NCBI RefSeq assembly: GCF_023920225.1 | Contig: NZ_CP092587.1 | Location: 2,480,001-2,544,000, forward strand | DNA from: Vibrio gazogenes | GTDB lineage: Bacteria; Pseudomonadota; Gammaproteobacteria; Enterobacterales; Vibrionaceae | Direction: 5' to 3' | DNA: 64,000 bases | Shown: positions 4,637 to 38,387 of the stretch, in pieces | How positions within the stretch are numbered: position 1 is the stretch's first letter | How the letters are laid out: each line of letters begins with the position of its first letter | Position numbers and translations under genes: made by a program | The notes under the pieces: generated by a model | Databases searched by the model: none | The model's input: the letters and a program-made list of their open reading frames with translations, nothing else | What the model was told of the DNA's origin: nothing

Positions 4637-5539
4637 TTATCGCATGGTCAGTGACTGTAGCATTGCTGCAGAGGGGGCAAATAAGTAAGCACCAGTCACC
4701 GCTTGCGTAAACCGGAGCATTTGATCTGTTTTACCATCACGCTCGCCATACATACTCTCTAACATCGCCTGGAAGTTATGCAAAGTCTGGCAATATGCGA
4801 TGAAAAGTAAGCCATGATCACCACTCACTGTCCCATATGGCAAGCTATGTCTGAGGATTTTCAACCCTTGCCCGTTCTCTTTCAAATCAACACGCCCGAC
4901 ATGAGATGCAGCCGGCACATCATCTAGTTCAACTGAATCGTCTTTCGTTCTGCCGATTACTTTCTCCTGAGCGGCAATGTTCAATCTTTCCCATGCCGGT
5001 AACTGGTGAACAAACCGCTGCATCATCACATAACTACCACCGGCAAATTCACCATCGTGGATAAGTGCAACTTCCTGACGTCGTTCATCTTTCGGATTCT
5101 CAGTGCCATCAATGAACCCTGTCATATCTCGCGCATCGAGATAACGATATCCGTAAGTTTCATCAATAATGTCCACCCATTCGGAAATTCCACTCATCAG
5201 TTGGCGCAACACATAAAACAGTAAGTCATGGCGCTGACCGTGCACATGAATCAAAAAATCGACGTCGGTCGCTGGCGCACGAATGTTCCCCTGACCTAAT
5301 GGGGTAAAATCCACCAACTCAGGCGGTAAAGCCGCGTCTAATTGTTTCCAGAATGAATGACTGAATGCAATGGAAAGGGACAGGTCAGCACCGGGCTGAG
5401 ATGCATTCAGTGTCTCGACCAGCTCCGGTAAAGATTGTAACTGACGCAATACCGATGCCGCTTCTTGCTTGACTTTAAAGATGGCATACAGCGCAAATGG
5501 TCCGGGTTCTGGCAAAATTGCAGTTTGAGGATGAGACAT
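4637..5539 (-). CDS. DyP-type haem peroxidase
   Basis: This 300-residue protein is a dye-decolourising peroxidase, a haem enzyme that uses H2O2 to oxidise varied substrates; the natural substrate is usually unknown. The hallmark GFIDG motif is at 141-145 with catalytic Asp144, the probable proximal haem ligand is His213 in ASHVGR, and the distal Arg is about 230 in LRHSLPYG. There is no signal peptide or Tat motif, so it should be cytoplasmic. An in-frame upstream start exists 13 codons earlier, but ATG 5539 follows AGGGA at good spacing. It is a single-gene unit closed by a terminator, with no encapsulin gene in view. Confidence 0.9.
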   Translation of the reverse strand: MSHPQTAILPEPGPFALYAIFKVKQEAASVLRQLQSLPELVETLNASQPGADLSLSIAFSHSFWKQLDAALPPELVDFTPLGQGNIRAPATDVDFLIHVHGQRHDLLFYVLRQLMSGISEWVDIIDETYGYRYLDARDMTGFIDGTENPKDERRQEVALIHDGEFAGGSYVMMQRFVHQLPAWERLNIAAQEKVIGRTKDDSVELDDVPAASHVGRVDLKENGQGLKILRHSLPYGTVSGDHGLLFIAYCQTLHNFQAMLESMYGERDGKTDQMLRFTQAVTGAYLFAPSAAMLQSLTMR

Positions 5540-32449: not shown

Positions 32450-33541
32450 ATGGGGTTTAAATGTGGCATTGTTGGTTTACCAAACGTTGGCAAATCAACA
32501 CTTTTTAACGCTTTAACCAAAGCAGGAATTGAAGCGGCAAATTTTCCGTTTTGTACGATCGAACCAAATACAGGTATTGTTCCTGTTCCGGATTTGCGTC
32601 TTGATGCGCTGGCTAAAATTGTAAACCCTCAACGGGTATTGCCGACAACCATGGAGTTCGTCGATATTGCCGGTTTAGTTGCCGGAGCATCGAAAGGGGA
32701 AGGGCTGGGCAACAAGTTCTTGGCAAATATTCGTGAAACAGACGCAATTGGTCATGTGGTTCGTTGTTTCGAAAACGAAAACATTGTGCACGTCTCTGGC
32801 AAAGTGTCTCCGCTCGAAGATATCGAAGTCATTAACTTAGAATTGGCTTTGGCCGATTTAGACACTTGTGAACGAGCGATTCAACGCCAAGCCAAACGTG
32901 CTAAAGGTGGTGATAAAGCGGCAAAATTTGAAATTTCCGTGCTGGAAAAACTTCTTCCCGTACTCACCGAAGGCGGAATGGCTCGCAGTGTGACACTGGC
33001 AAAAGAGGAATTGGCGGCTATTGGTTATCTCAATTTCCTGACCCTCAAACCGACCATGTATATCGCGAACGTCAATGAAGACGGTTTTGAAAATAATCCT
33101 TATCTGGATGCGGTTCGGGAATTCGCAGCGCAAGAAAATAATGTTGTCGTCGCTGTTTGTGCCGCCATTGAGTCAGAACTTTCTGAATTGGATGATGAAG
33201 AGCGAGATGAGTTCCTTGCCGATTTGGGTATTGAAGAGCCAGGATTGAACCGTGTGATTCGTTCAGGCTATGAACTCCTAGAGCTGCATACCTATTTTAC
33301 TGCTGGTGTGAAAGAAGTCAGAGCTTGGACAATCCCTATCGGCTCAACAGCCCCACAAGCTGCCGGGAAAATTCATACGGACTTCGAACGTGGTTTCATT
33401 CGCGCGGAAGTCGTCGGTTATGATGATTTCATTCAGTACAATGGTGAGAGTGGCGCCAAAGAAGCAGGTAAATGGCGTCTGGAAGGGAAAGATTATATTG
33501 TTAAAGATGGCGATGTGATCCATTTCCGCTTCAATGTCTAA
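32450..33541 (+). CDS. ychF: Ribosome-binding ATPase YchF
   Basis: This 363-residue Obg-family protein has the P-loop GLPNVGKST (about 9-17), [17 protein letters not shown] in the switch II region, and NVNE at the base-recognition position instead of NKxD; the NxxE form is what makes YchF prefer ATP. The C-terminal TGS domain ends [11 protein letters not shown]. The pth-ychF pair is widely conserved. Confidence 0.95.
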
Positions 33542-33824: not shown

Positions 33825-33901
33825 GGCTACGTAGCTCAGCTGGTTAGAGCACATCACTCATAATGATGGGGTCACAGGTTCGAATCCCGTCGTAGCCACC
33901 A
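33825..33901 (+). tRNA. tRNA-Met (CAT), elongator
   Basis: This 77-base cloverleaf has acceptor GGCTACG/CGTAGCC and anticodon CAT. It is nearly identical to E. coli elongator metT, and its G1-C72 pair excludes the initiator. It is first in the array. CCA is encoded. Its T-loop reads GTTCGAATC. Confidence 0.97.
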
Positions 33902-33944
33902 TTTCCTAAGTACTTTTAATATGAAAAGTCTTTAGGAAAGATAT

Positions 33945-34029
33945 GCGGAAGTGGCGAAATTGGTAGACGCACCAGATTTAGGTTCTGGCGCCGCAAGGTG
34001 TGAGAGTTCAAGTCTCTCCTTCCGCACCA
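33945..34029 (+). tRNA. tRNA-Leu (TAG)
   Basis: This is an 85-base class II tRNA with a long variable arm, acceptor GCGGAAG/CTTCCGC, anticodon TAG in GATTTAGGT and encoded CCA. It is the first of four identical-looking copies. Confidence 0.97.
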
Positions 34030-34066
34030 TATTTAAGATAACTTCTTTAAGCGAAGTTATGACAAC

Positions 34067-34141
34067 AGGTCTATAGCCAAGCGGTAAGGCAACGGGTTTT
34101 GATCCCGTCATCCCCTGGTTCGAATCCAGGTAGACCTGCCA
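34067..34141 (+). tRNA. tRNA-Gln (TTG)
   Basis: This 75-base tRNA has anticodon TTG (GTTTTGATC) and encoded CCA. The acceptor stem is AGGTCTA/TAGACCT, so the first pair is A1-U72, the reverse of the U1-A72 pair in E. coli tRNA-Gln. It is the first of four copies. Confidence 0.97.
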
Positions 34142-34220
34142 TATTTTATTTGTCTCAATCTGGGAAAAAAGAGATTGAAACAAACAGCGGGATTGATTAT
34201 ATTGTCTCGCTCTAAAATGA

Positions 34221-34297
34221 GGCTACGTAGCTCAGCTGGTTAGAGCACATCACTCATAATGATGGGGTCACAGGTTCAAATCCCGTCGTAGCCACCA
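34221..34297 (+). tRNA. tRNA-Met (CAT), elongator
   Basis: Second elongator Met copy, 77 bases. It differs from the first in the T-loop (GTTCAAATC for GTTCGAATC). It opens the first copy of the duplicated block. Confidence 0.97.
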
Positions 34298-34322
34298 TAT
34301 TAAATTCTTTTGCTACTCATAT

Positions 34323-34409
34323 GCGGTGGTGGCGGAATTGGTAGACGCGCTAGCTTCAGGTGCTAGTGTCCGTTAGGACGTGAGGGTTCAAGTCCCTCCC
34401 TCCGCACCA
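34323..34409 (+). tRNA. tRNA-Leu (CAG)
   Basis: This 87-base class II tRNA has anticodon CAG in the loop TTCAGGT. The acceptor GCGGTGG/CCTCCGC has an unpaired T5-T68 position. CCA is encoded. Confidence 0.95.
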
Positions 34410-34424
34410 GCAAAAGAATGTTAC

Positions 34425-34499
34425 AGGTCTATAGCCAAGTGGTAAGGCAACGGGTTTTGATCCCGTCATTCCCTGGTTCGAATCCAGGTAGACCTGCCA
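34425..34499 (+). tRNA. tRNA-Gln (TTG)
   Basis: Second Gln copy. It differs from the first in the D-loop (AAGTGG for AAGCGG) and variable region (CATTCC for CATCCC), so two sequence versions of this tRNA exist in the array. Confidence 0.97.
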
Positions 34500-34574
34500 T
34501 ATCAAATGACTTTGAACACTGTGTTGTTTAAGTACTATGTTGAAAGTCGGAGCGAAAGCTCAACAATATACAAT

Positions 34575-34659
34575 GCGGAAGTGGCGAAATTGGTAGACGC
34601 ACCAGATTTAGGTTCTGGCGCCGCAAGGTGTGAGAGTTCAAGTCTCTCCTTCCGCACCA
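34575..34659 (+). tRNA. tRNA-Leu (TAG)
   Basis: Second Leu(TAG) copy; the mature sequence is the same as the first. It closes the first copy of the duplicated block. Confidence 0.97.
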
Positions 34660-34697
34660 TATTTTAAGATAACTTCTTTAAGCGAAGTTATGACAAC

Positions 34698-34772
34698 AGG
34701 TCTATAGCCAAGCGGTAAGGCAACGGGTTTTGATCCCGTCATCCCCTGGTTCGAATCCAGGTAGACCTGCCA
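34698..34772 (+). tRNA. tRNA-Gln (TTG)
   Basis: Third Gln copy, of the AAGCGG version. The spacer before it (taagataacttctttaagcg) repeats the spacer before the first Gln copy. Confidence 0.97.
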
Positions 34773-34848
34773 CATCGAATGACTTTGAACATTATGTTGC
34801 TTTACATACGATGTTGAAAGTCAGAGCGAAAGCTCAATAATATACAAT

Positions 34849-34933
34849 GCGGAAGTGGCGAAATTGGTAGACGCACCAGATTTAGGTTCTGGCGCCGCAA
34901 GGTGTGAGAGTTCAAGTCTCTCCTTCCGCACCA
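34849..34933 (+). tRNA. tRNA-Leu (TAG)
   Basis: Third Leu(TAG) copy with the same mature sequence. Confidence 0.97.
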
Positions 34934-34964
34934 TGAATTTGTTATCATACTGATAACTGAATAT

Positions 34965-35041
34965 GGCTACGTAGCTCAGCTGGTTAGAGCACATCACTCA
35001 TAATGATGGGGTCACAGGTTCAAATCCCGTCGTAGCCACCA
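34965..35041 (+). tRNA. tRNA-Met (CAT), elongator
   Basis: Third Met copy, of the GTTCAAATC version. It opens the second copy of the duplicated block. Confidence 0.97.
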
Positions 35042-35066
35042 TATTAAATTCTTTTGCTACTCATAT

Positions 35067-35153
35067 GCGGTGGTGGCGGAATTGGTAGACGCGCTAGCTT
35101 CAGGTGCTAGTGTCCGTTAGGACGTGAGGGTTCAAGTCCCTCCCTCCGCACCA
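35067..35153 (+). tRNA. tRNA-Leu (CAG)
   Basis: Second Leu(CAG) copy, identical to the one 744 bases upstream, including the T5-T68 mismatch. Confidence 0.95.
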
Positions 35154-35168
35154 GCAAAAGAATGTTAC

Positions 35169-35243
35169 AGGTCTATAGCCAAGTGGTAAGGCAACGGGTT
35201 TTGATCCCGTCATTCCCTGGTTCGAATCCAGGTAGACCTGCCA
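35169..35243 (+). tRNA. tRNA-Gln (TTG)
   Basis: Fourth Gln copy, of the AAGTGG version, identical to the copy 744 bases upstream. Confidence 0.97.
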
Positions 35244-35318
35244 TATCAAATGACTTTGAACACTGTGTTGTTTAAATACTATGTTGAAAGTCGGAGCGAA
35301 AGCTCAACAACATACAAT

Positions 35319-35403
35319 GCGGAAGTGGCGAAATTGGTAGACGCACCAGATTTAGGTTCTGGCGCCGCAAGGTGTGAGAGTTCAAGTCTCTCCTTCCGCA
35401 CCA
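35319..35403 (+). tRNA. tRNA-Leu (TAG)
   Basis: Fourth Leu(TAG) copy and last tRNA of the array, followed within 8 bases by the array terminator. Confidence 0.97.
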
Positions 35404-35410
35404 TGAATTT

Positions 35411-35440
35411 AACCCAGACGATTGTCTGGGTTTTCTTTTA
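35411..35440 (+). terminator. Terminator of the tRNA array
   Basis: AACCCAGAC, GATT and GTCTGGGTT form a 9-bp stem followed by TTCTTTT. Confidence 0.88.
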
Positions 35441-35566: not shown

Positions 35567-36700
35567 TTATCCAAGTAATCCTAATGCAGCACTTGGAGCT
35601 TGTTTCGCTTGTGCTAAAACAGAGCTTGATGCCTGAGAAAGGATTTGGGACTTCGTCAATGCGGTGGTTTCTTTCGCGAAGTCGGTATCTTTGATCCGAC
35701 TCTTCGAAGCATTCACATTTTCATTGATGTTATCCAAGTTGCTAATCGCATGTCCGAAACGGTTTTGGAATGCACCGAGTTCAGCACGATGACTATCCAC
35801 ATACTTCAGTGCAGCATCAACGACAGCAACCGACTGTTGAGCACCGCCAACCGAAGTCACATCAATATCGCTGACTGTTGTTGCTTTCCCTTCACCGATA
35901 CCGAGTTCGCCAGCAAGGCCGCCACCAAAGCTCACTGAACCATCCACTTTACTACTATCCGAGAATAATTGCAGTTTACCTTCATCATCAACAGACGCCT
36001 TCACCATATCAGTCTGACCATTGATATAGGTTGCCAGCTCTTCAATATCATCACCTGCTTTCGCATTGATATTGATGGTTTGCTCGCCATTTAACTTATC
36101 ATTGACTGTAATGGTCAGATCGTTGGCACCATTTTGAACTTGCCAGTCTTTCCCCTTACCATTCGCAGCAATATAAGACATACCGCCCATCATGTTATTA
36201 TCGCTACGCATATCTTTCAGGTGGAGCATAACCGCTTCACCGCTGTCAGCACCAATCTGGAAAGATTTAGTATCGAAAGTACCATTGAGAAGCTTATTAC
36301 CGCCGAATGATGTTGTTTCCGCAACACGGTTTAATTCATCATTCAATGCTGTAATTTCTTCCTGAATCGCAACACGATCCGATTTCGAGTTAGAACCATT
36401 CGAAGATTGAAGAGACAAGTCTCTCATCCGTTGCAAAATACTGGTTGTTTCATTCATTGCCCCTTCCGCAGTCTGAGCAATTGAAATACCGTCATTCGCG
36501 TTACGAACAGCAACACCCAATCCCCGGCTTTGAACACTCAAACGATTTGAGATTTGAAGGCCAGCCGAATCATCCTTAGCACTGTTGATTCGATATCCTG
36601 AGGATAAGCGTTCCATTGATGAATTCATCGACTTCGTTGCACTGTTCAGATAGCGCTGGGCCGTCATCGCAGAAACGTTCGTGTTAACATTAACCGCCAT
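35567..36700 (-). CDS. flaC: Flagellin (FlaC-type)
   Basis: This 377-residue flagellin starts [19 protein letters not shown] and ends [10 protein letters not shown]. The D0/D1 ends and the TLR5-type [16 protein letters not shown] segment are conserved. Two departures from the other copies are visible in D1: DDSAGLQ for DDAAGLQ and RGLGVAV for RGLDVAV or RGLDMAV. It has its own FliA promoter about 95-120 bases upstream and hairpins in the leader. Its place next to flaA matches V. cholerae flaC. Confidence 0.85.
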
Positions 36701-36718
36701 AGTGGTTTCTCCTATTGA

Positions 36719-36767
36719 TTTTCCGACGTCGCGGAAATTCTTGACTGTTTTCCGACGTCTCGGAAAA
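36719..36767 (-). other. Paired hairpins in the flaC leader
   Basis: Two dyads lie between promoter and ribosome site: TTTTCCGA-GACG-TCGGAAAA at 36748-36767 (8-bp stem) and a second TTTCCG/CGGAAA stem around CGACGT at about 36719-36737. The first is also in the flaD leader. Both put CGGAAA close to the AGGAG ribosome site. Confidence 0.6.
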
Positions 36768-36794
36768 CTATAGTTCTCTCAAAGTTCGACCTTT

Positions 36795-36821
36795 TTAGCG
36801 ACTCAGAATGGATTTCCTTTA
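36795..36821 (-). promoter_or_regulatory. FliA (sigma-28) promoter of flaC
   Basis: On the minus strand TAAAGGAA, 11 bases, then GTCGCTAA. The TAAAG core and spacing are ideal; the -10 element has two mismatches to GCCGATAA. Confidence 0.75.
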
Positions 36822-37195
36822 GAAAAAAGAGGGGGTTTTCGTCATGAAGGAATCGTCCAGCATAGAAAATGAGAGAAGCAACACAAATTTCATATAAAAC
36901 TCAGAAAAGACTCAAGTTTTTTCTCATTGTGCCGAGAGGGCTGGAATTGATGCTGCCGATGAACCGCTCACAATAGCGCTTGAAGTCATCTGATTTGGGG
37001 ATAACGAATTGATATGGCGGGAAAAGAAAAAGCCCCTTATCTTTGAGAGAACCGGGGCTATTGGTGGTAAGTCAATCATGTGGAGATCAAGAGAAATGAA
37101 CACATCATGACTAACCGGGTGTATGATAAGGAATGAATATAAAGCAGGTGTTAAACTTGAGAGAGCTTTATATCATCCACAAATCACACTTTACC
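36822..37195. other. Intergenic stretch between flaA and the flaC promoter
   Basis: About 370 bases without a gene. A second hairpin is present at 37022-37060: on the minus strand AGCCCC, a 20-odd-base loop, GGGGCT and TTTTTCTTTT, which could act as a back-up terminator for flaA. Nothing else was found. Confidence 0.55.
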
Positions 37196-37241
37196 AAAAA
37201 AGCTTTATCATATACCCACGTCTGAGCTGAATGATAAAGCT
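37196..37241 (-). terminator. Terminator after flaA
   Basis: On the minus strand AGCTTTATCAT, a 19-base loop and ATGATAAAGCT form a perfect 11-bp stem that runs into TTTTT, starting 6 bases after the flaA stop codon. Confidence 0.88.
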
Positions 37242-37247
37242 CTACTA

Positions 37248-38387
37248 CTACTGCAATAGTGATATTGCAGAGTTTGGTAACTGTTTTGCCTGAGCAAGTA
37301 TTGAGGTACCTGCTTGCTGCAATATTTGAGCTTTTGTCATCTGCGTCGTTTCTTTCGCAAAGTCGGTATCTTTAATCCGACTCTTCGACGCTTCAACATT
37401 TTCCTGTATGTTCGACAAGTTGTTGATACTGTGACTTAAACGGTTCTGTTTTGCCCCTAAGTCTGCTCGCTGTGAATCAACATACTGAAGCGCAGCATCA
37501 AGTACACCGACCGAATTCTGCGAATTACCAACATTCGTAATATCAGTGGTTTGAACCGTCGTATTCTGTCCAGGTCCGCCATTCAGACCTAACTCTGTTG
37601 CTAACCCGCCAGAGATAGAGAGGTTACCCTGAAGATTAGGCTCCGCCATAAAGAGCTGAAGGTGTCCGTCATCATCTACTGAAGCGGTAACATCATCGAC
37701 CTGCCCATTGATGTAAGTTGCCAACTCTTCGATGTCATCACCAGATTTCGCCATGACATCCACAGATACCTGCTCACCATTTTTCTTGGTAAACTCTAAC
37801 TTCATATCCCGAGCATTCTCAGGAACGCCCCAGCTCATGTCTTTCCCTTGTTCGGACACAAATGTCTGACCACCCATACGGAAATCATCGGCACGAATAC
37901 TGGTGAGACCAACAATGATCGCTTCACCGGAGCTGGCACCAATTTGGAAAGCAGACTCACCAAACGTACCGTTCAACAGTTTCCGACCACCGAATGAAGT
38001 TGTTTCAGCGATTCGGTTTAATTCATCTTGAAGGGCTGAATACTCTTCATTCAGTGCCTTACGCTCAGATGTGGAGTTCGTTCCATTTGTAGACTGGAGT
38101 GCCAGATCTCGCATCCGTTGCAAGATACTAGTTGACTCATTCATTGCCCCTTCAGCAGTCTGTGCAATCGAAATACCATCATTGGCATTTCGCATCGCGA
38201 CATCCAACCCTCGGGACTGAGCAGTCAATCGATTCGAAATCTGAAGACCTGCCGCATCATCTTTCGCACTGTTAATTCGGTTTCCCGAAGACAGGCGCTC
38301 CATGGAGGTGTTTAACTCACCCGTTGCCTTATTCAGGTAACGCTGAGCGGTCATCGCTGACACATTGGTATTGACTGTGATGGTCAT
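37248..38387 (-). CDS. flaA: Major flagellin FlaA
   Basis: This 379-residue flagellin has [39 protein letters not shown] and the C-terminal [13 protein letters not shown], which match V. cholerae FlaA closely. FlaA is the subunit needed for filament formation in V. cholerae. Unlike the other four copies it is preceded by a sigma-54-like element and not by a FliA promoter, the arrangement known for V. cholerae flaA. It lies downstream of flgL and ends in a strong terminator. Confidence 0.92.

Follow-up and report, generated by a model that had tools for sequence, protein, structure and literature searches.

A 64,000-nucleotide (nt) stretch of the genome of Vibrio gazogenes (hereafter, the window) carries a run of transfer RNA (tRNA) genes. 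Thirteen tRNA genes were confirmed at 33825–35403, all on the plus strand, by ARAGORN and by 13 matches to the Rfam tRNA model; their order according to ARAGORN is Met-LeuUAG-Gln-Met-LeuCAG-Gln-LeuUAG-Gln-LeuUAG-Met-LeuCAG-Gln-LeuUAG. The array is real and well conserved and represents a familiar type of operon that has grown larger in Vibrio; as judged from its sequence, it is the Vibrio counterpart of the Escherichia coli metT operon. The best explanation of the locus as a whole, which we consider likely, is a chromosomal, probably essential metT-type operon located after ychF, with promoter-like sites P1 and P2, a constant head, a tail that varies between species, and structured spacers. 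We infer the promoter function of P2, the recombination of the tail, the processing of the precursor, and selection on gene dosage.

The metT operon of E. coli holds only Met, Leu-UAG, and Gln genes and starts with Met-Leu-Gln; Vibrio gazogenes likewise places its elongator Met, Leu-UAG, and Gln genes in a single co-directional unit with that start. The promoter core with its GC-rich discriminator was found in the E. coli upstream region and in 80 of 81 Vibrio loci; the two cores are near-identical (GTTGACG...CGCATAATGCGC in E. coli, TTGACG...CGCATAATGCGC in Vibrio gazogenes). The E. coli operon has the order M-L-Q-Q-M-Q-Q and thus seven genes, versus 11–21 in Vibrio, and its spacers are 9–47 nt long, three of the six folding at −6.0 to −7.4 kcal/mol; Leu-CAG belongs to another unit in E. 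coli, whereas in Vibrio it lies within the array. The neighbours also differ, being ychF and flagellin in Vibrio gazogenes and asnB and ubiF in E. coli; the two operons are therefore of the same kind and of probable common origin, but are not positional orthologs. A Met-Leu-Gln array 3' of ychF was present in Vibrionaceae and in many of the fetched Alteromonadales loci, where it had 3–9 genes; no array was found within the stretch examined after ychF in Psychromonas, Idiomarina, Pseudidiomarina, and other Alteromonadales, or in the Enterobacterales and Pasteurellaceae loci.

The sequence-only reading held that the array serves only Met, Leu(CUN), and Gln codons, and this can be put more strongly: the array was the sole source found in the genome of its tRNAs, with 4/4 Gln, 4/4 Leu-UAG, 2/2 Leu-CAG, and 3/3 elongator-like Met genes. 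One Leu-GAG gene, also a CUN reader, sits outside it, and the other CAU genes of the genome were three initiator-like and one Ile2-like, these Met classes being presumed from sequence features. Scoring 150 of the 275 first-look candidates gave 87 tRNA genes above the Rfam cut-off in the genome, 13 of them in the array; typing covered 86 genes in the fetched stretches and the Arg-CCT gene of the window. A DNA search with the array (19/19 candidates scored) revealed no second near-identical copy in the genome. The E. coli metT unit, containing all metTU, leuW, glnUW, and glnVX genes, is essential, as excerpted from PMC11480407; by analogy, the Vibrio array is very probably essential as well.

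For comparison within the genus, 196 Vibrio genomes were searched and the locus was retrieved from 82 of them, picked among the best DNA matches listed and not as a random sample. Eight loci (L117, L138, L140, L150, L154, L157, L164, and L165) were dropped for contig ends, runs of N, or an oddly called gene, leaving 74 complete arrays; 13 of these came from assemblies with over 5 contigs and were kept out of the main counts, for which the remaining 61 served. Related genomes are non-independent samples, so the array counts are descriptive, a point against the best explanation.

Transcription from one strong promoter had been proposed. P1 is indeed present and conserved: it had the form TTGACG-N16-18-CATAATGCG in 80 of 81 Vibrio upstream regions, the remaining one having CATAATCCG. 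Stringently controlled tRNA promoters have a GC-rich discriminator and are repressed by guanosine tetraphosphate (ppGpp); in Vibrio gazogenes, P1 is followed by GCGCTCCG, and such control is putative. That P1 is the only promoter is doubtful, because each of the 74 complete arrays has a promoter-like site, P2, ahead of its second Met gene. In 72 of them it lies in the spacer that links the first Gln gene to the second Met gene and measures 72–95 nt (interquartile range 77–79), while other spacer classes vary more in length; in two arrays with an altered head (MLQcQM, where c is Leu-CAG) the element stands one pair later, still before the second Met gene. The −10-like box was TATATT in 63, TATAGT in 8, and TATCCT or TATTCT in 3 of the 74 arrays, followed by a CTCGCTC-type sequence and preceded by a looser −35 box at a distance of 17–18 base pairs (bp). 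The best promoter match averaged 9.42 of 12 in 59 distinct P2 spacers versus 8.09 after shuffling, whereas three other classes of spacers of at least 60 nt equalled their shuffles (8.20/8.08, 8.15/8.18, and 7.89/7.94). The corresponding spacer in seven Photobacterium/Enterovibrio loci was 11–62 nt long, one of 79 nt lacking an evident −10 box, and the second Met gene of E. coli metT is preceded by only 15 nt and hence by no P2-like spacer.

The strongest competing explanation, which we regard as unlikely but worth weighing, is that P2 is not a promoter: the spacer would be kept as an RNA structure, with an incidental −10-like box, and P1 would drive all 13 genes. The P2 spacer does fold strongly (mean z-score, z, −3.45), and its −35-like box lies within a hairpin arm and is often a poor match. 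Several results count against a promoter at this place: only 44 of 72 −35 boxes begin with TTG and 22 are ATGGCA or ATAGCA, and 7 of the 59 distinct spacers score only 8, no better than shuffles. The inverted repeat around the −10 box also lacks covariation (stem 5.9, arms swapped 6.1, shuffled 4.5). Compensatory change in this repeat had been a candidate, suggested by single sequences, and was dropped, since arms swapped between sequences pair equally. No structure emerged when the aligned P2 spacers were folded to a consensus, so the hairpin is based on single-sequence folds and z-scores. Against the structural explanation, the −10-like box and the CTCGCTC-type sequence stay constant while the hairpin arms change, the other spacers of at least 60 nt show no promoter excess, and the two arrays with different heads still place the element before the second Met gene. 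On the promoter reading, P2 would drive the tail of the array, and P1 and P2 would feed one terminator.

Structure was not confined to the P2 spacer. Seven spacer classes folded better than their dinucleotide shuffles (mean z from −2.2 to −4.6, up to 60 distinct sequences each), while Leu-Leu, Met-LeuCAG, and LeuCAG-Gln (one sequence only) spacers folded no better than such shuffles. In these non-folding classes, the two spacers that flank a tRNA tend to base-pair with one another, forming a putative clamp. Scored against mononucleotide shuffles, this flanking-spacer pairing reached z −4.9 around Met-c-Gln (11 cases) and −5.1 around Met-c-Leu (7), and −2.4 around Met-Leu-Leu (34) and −2.9 around Gln-c-Gln (4), where the first spacer can fold alone; it was about 0 to −0.65 in common classes with hairpins in both spacers. 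In Vibrio gazogenes, neither spacer flanking the first Leu(CAG) gene folded alone (z 0.1 and 0.3).

With a 20-nt length cut-off for every group and a threshold of z below −2, structured spacers made up 178 of the 250 sampled among 798 distinct ones from Vibrio arrays. In the Vibrio gazogenes array itself they were 8 of 10, the other two being clamp spacers. Photobacterium and Enterovibrio together had 39 of 64, Alteromonadales at the same locus 15 of 46, other tRNA clusters of the Vibrio gazogenes genome 7 of 26, and the E. coli operon 0 of 4. Covariation was scored on structures derived from the same alignments. The first Met-Leu spacer (63 distinct orthologues) had 97.8% of cells paired and 8/8 pairs changed on both sides, slid versions giving 30–59%. 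For the Leu-Gln spacer (49 of 59 distinct spacers, of similar length), 88.4% of cells were paired and 6/6 pairs were changed, with 64 cells, slid versions giving 23–65%; one slid version likewise had 6/6 pairs, with 34 cells. A loose count over 1174 spacers gave 1015 with their own hairpin, 119 with a clamp only, and 40 with neither. This test is permissive, being passed by 443 of 798 shuffled versus 719 of 798 real spacers, a point against the best explanation; the z-scores therefore carry the weight. In the 719 hairpin spacers, a stretch rich in U comes after the CCA end (T in 76% and 68% at the first two positions), with a median of 7 unpaired bases 5' of the hairpin and a median of 7 before the next tRNA.

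Such spacers may matter for processing. As excerpted from PMC4191395, ribonuclease (RNase) E cleaves the metT precursor of E. coli at a site 2 nt past metU and requires unpaired regions in the vicinity; as excerpted from PMC9841416, the upstream glnW tRNA stimulates this cutting, and in the argX-hisR precursor a simple stem-loop can replace the neighbouring tRNA. The likeness is that the E. coli transcript is orthologous and structured neighbours stimulate its cutting (PMC9841416, PMC4191395, excerpts), and we infer by analogy that the Vibrio hairpins take the role of the stimulating neighbour. The spacer hairpins or the clamps flanking a tRNA would thus help RNase E and RNase P to cut the precursor into single tRNAs. 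A point to be set against this proposal is that the RNase E work, in the excerpted sources, concerns E. coli RNA and not Vibrio spacers, and that the stem-loop replacement was made on argX-hisR. The hairpins and clamps offer a large and varied collection of precursors in which the cutting of polycistronic tRNA transcripts can be studied.

Two other ideas were considered and not adopted. As insulators against tRNA misfolding, the hairpins gave no consistent gain of native over shuffled spacers (0.467 vs 0.439 and 0.426 vs 0.445; 2 arrays, 10 shuffles each). RNase III has a length requirement for its substrates, and it is less likely as the general cutter because many Leu-Gln stems are short (6–8 pairs). 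A search of titles and the starts of abstracts in the open-licence literature revealed no description of the Vibrio array, of a promoter inside it, or of hairpins in its spacers. Older work deals with repetitive tRNA clusters in Photobacterium. Other repeated tRNA clusters also occur in the Vibrio gazogenes genome (Phe-Thr-Asn, His-Pro, and Gly-initiator Met; loci L212, at C1:2969100-2970600, L198, and L214); their spacer structure is weaker on the whole, and one Gly-Met spacer of L214 has z −5.5.

The arrays differed in length and order, and composition was nearly fixed at each length. The 74 complete arrays had 11 to 21 genes and the 61 from assemblies of at most 5 contigs had 13 to 21; the proposed expansion and contraction thus holds between species, while five close genomes share a single 13-gene order. 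The head of the 61 arrays was MLQM in 55, McLQM in 4, and MLQcQM in 2. In the same set, all seven 13-gene arrays had the composition Met3 Leu6 Gln4 and all twenty 19-gene arrays had Met4 Leu9 Gln6, in ten orders; a single composition was also found at 15 (9/9), 16 (5/5), 20 (4/4), and 21 genes (5/5), while compositions were split at 14 (3 and 1) and 17 genes (5 and 2). Upstream divergence was below 20% in 172 pairs: 34 of these shared their order, 114 shared their composition in a different order, and 24 differed in length, so that 0 of the 148 same-length pairs differed in composition. If near-identical units recombine and the total dosage is then under selection, shuffled tails with a constant Met:Leu:Gln ratio would result, and such selection on dosage with freely recombining order may explain the pattern. 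Exceptions speak against a strict rule: 13 of 152 same-length pairs above 20% divergence differed in composition, and the 13 drafts included an 11-gene and an 18-gene array and deviating compositions, e.g., Met3 Leu9 Gln7 at 19 genes. Since close Vibrio relatives often differ in order but seldom in ratio, dosage selection is directly testable, and the locus amounts to a natural experiment on tRNA dosage. A more specific picture is a two-part machine with a P1-driven head, a recombining tail under a genus-wide internal promoter, and a hairpin-or-clamp processing code, in which order drifts while the ratio is selected; we put it forward tentatively, at somewhat less than an even chance.

Differences in length and order between species could instead be largely assembly artefacts of a repetitive region, which we find improbable. 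Wrongly threaded repeats would indeed give permuted orders with constant composition, a concern for the dosage argument as well. As had been expected from the repeats, assemblies break at the array: the matches listed by a ychF search (the best 80 of 584 places) included 21 contigs of Vibrionaceae, of which 11 ended 0.4–2.5 kilobases (kb) after ychF and none within the 6 kb before it. Runs of N lie inside the array in L117, L154, L164, and L165. Loci L162 and L173 have identical 280-bp upstream regions and 11 vs 19 genes, the 11-gene array being from a draft of about 50 contigs. Against an artefact, the pattern stays in the 61 arrays from assemblies of at most 5 contigs, and the array, at 1.6–3 kb, is shorter than ordinary long reads. 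Because draft assemblies break here, tRNA counts from Vibrio drafts need care. The difference between L162 and L173 may be a collapse or a true contraction. An apparent loss of the array in the close relative G131 was unsupported, the region being 1312 N directly after the first Met gene (L117, 2284–3595).

The repeat inside the Vibrio gazogenes array had been described as an exact 744-base block, and it is neither 744 bases long nor exact: 744 bp is the start-to-start period of a 440-bp unit, and this period had been mistaken for the size of the block. Met-LeuCAG-Gln-LeuUAG does occur twice, spacers included, with the two differences noticed before; the copies are identical at 438 of 440 positions (they differ at 34532 and 34567, which leaves unbroken matches of 311, 34, and 93 bp) and are separated by 304 bp holding a Gln-LeuUAG pair. 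Other Leu-Gln and Gln-Leu stretches repeat as well, with exact runs of 110, 99, 96, and 92 bp. In our judgement, repeats of such lengths are far above chance, and the identity of the spacers is the informative part because genes for the same isoacceptor are expected to be nearly identical anyway.

The 13-gene order is common to the Vibrio gazogenes genome and its four nearest readable relatives, one of them V. ruber. Across these five genomes, the blocks were 98.6–99.5% identical within a genome and 89.4–97.3% identical for the same block between genomes. In the block tree, both blocks of each genome paired together in 5/5 cases (support 0.76 to 1.00), and the Gln-Leu spacers of the two blocks likewise paired by genome in 5/5. 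From the shared order and this pairing by genome, the duplication, on sequence comparison, is older than at least five species, its copies having been kept alike by concerted evolution, for which gene conversion is most simply the source. The middle Gln-Leu spacer of the Vibrio gazogenes genome stands apart, and that of G068 groups with another species; the latter runs counter to full concerted evolution, and homogenisation is therefore incomplete.

A recent tandem duplication at the strain level, coming and going between strains as the sequence-only reading would have it, is still less probable than an assembly artefact. It would account for the 438/440 identity and agrees with the differing gene numbers among Vibrio species and with an E. 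coli strain having one gene fewer. Yet five species share the 13-gene order although their orthologous blocks are only 89.4–97.3% identical, and one old duplication with recombination is preferred as simpler than five identical recent duplications. Altered tRNA dosage by tandem duplication is known from Pseudomonas fluorescens SBW25, as excerpted from PMC7661048; that case is one of laboratory evolution involving large regions, whereas the Vibrio array appears old and homogenised. In E. coli, strain variation of the metT operon exists but is rare: the Gln-Gln junction of the K-12-like operon was found in 5,293 of 5,426 genomes and any operon match in 5,374, leaving at most about 81 genomes without the junction at the search sensitivity used. 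The junction occurred at 5,333 places in those 5,293 genomes, hence more than once in some. In strain EcPF18 (L233), the annotated metT operon comprises six genes, with one Gln gene less than in the K-12-like L234, and this six-gene arrangement was matched at least 80% in one place by 65 E. coli genomes. As a separate observation, both metT operon flanks match in E. coli NZ_CP166080.1 (693776–694307; H63, H113), while the annotation shows no tRNA in the interval; the strain may be engineered, or the operon may have moved elsewhere.

Finally, although phages and mobile elements do carry long tRNA arrays, a mobile or phage-borne origin, judged from location and promoter, is practically negligible, as the array keeps a conserved site after ychF and not a variable genomic location (a tRNA-Met gene was 3' of ychF in 20 of 21 Vibrionaceae contigs among the matches listed, the other, L022, ending 368 bp after ychF) and P1 matches the E. 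coli promoter.

The positions of the individual features are listed in Table 1.

Table 1. Features of the tRNA array and its surroundings in Vibrio gazogenes (positions in the window).
Feature	Position	Strand	Details
ychF, upstream neighbour and anchor	32450–33541	+	open reading frame of 363 amino acids
P1	33752–33780	+	TTGACG, 17 bp, CATAAT, then GCGCTCCG discriminator
Constant head	33825–34141	+	tRNA-Met 33825–33901, tRNA-Leu(UAG) 33945–34029, tRNA-Gln(UUG) 34067–34141
Met-Leu spacer hairpin	33902–33944	+	−12.9 kcal/mol, z −3.8
Leu-Gln spacer hairpin	34030–34066	+	−7.0 kcal/mol, z −3.5; related hairpin 34660–34697
Gln-to-second-Met spacer with hairpin and promoter-like site P2	34142–34220	+	
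P2 (putative)	34175–34203	+	TTGAAA, 17 bp, TATATT, then GTCTCGCTC
Repeat copy 1	34221–34660	+	Met 34221–34297, Leu(CAG) 34323–34409, Gln 34425–34499, Leu(UAG) 34575–34659
Clamp around Leu(CAG), copy 1	34304–34419	+	ATTCTTTTGC (34304–34313) can pair with GCAAAAGAAT (34410–34419)
Gln-Leu spacers, two hairpins	34500–34574; related 34773–34848, 35244–35318	+	z −3.4, −4.7, −4.9
Intervening pair between repeat copies	34698–34933	+	tRNA-Gln 34698–34772, tRNA-Leu(UAG) 34849–34933
Leu-Met spacer hairpin	34934–34964	+	z −3.0
Repeat copy 2	34965–35404	+	Met 34965–35041, Leu(CAG) 35067–35153, Gln 35169–35243, Leu(UAG) 35319–35403
Clamp around Leu(CAG), copy 2	35048–35163	+	35048–35057 with 35154–35163
Intrinsic-terminator-like site after last tRNA gene	35411–35432	+	pattern match

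The suggestion that tRNA dosage is tuned to flagellar genes found no support, as codon use shows no flagellar specialisation. A sample of eleven 20-kb stretches with 170 predicted genes had 14.1% Met, Leu-CUN, and Gln codons combined; the share was 11.8% in the ribosomal-protein region and 13.1% in the part of the window beyond 35.5 kb, where genes that are presumably flagellar extend to at least 41.9 kb. Compared with the sample, this part of the window had 4.8% vs 6.4% CUN, 2.8 vs 2.4 Met, and 5.5 vs 5.3 Gln codons.

Regarding the surroundings, the genome consists of two contigs with a total of 4.71 Mb (megabases). The ORF upstream of the array we take from its sequence to be ychF; its product is 99% identical to the V. 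ruber protein. The terminator was called from its position after the last gene and not from its pattern, which alone is not significant (1 such site in the region vs a mean of 2.5 in shuffles). Downstream, on the opposite strand, lies a gene at 35567–36700 that we take to encode flagellin. It belongs to two flagellin-like genes of 377 and 379 amino acids (35567–38387, minus strand), which adjoin the array and are convergent with it.

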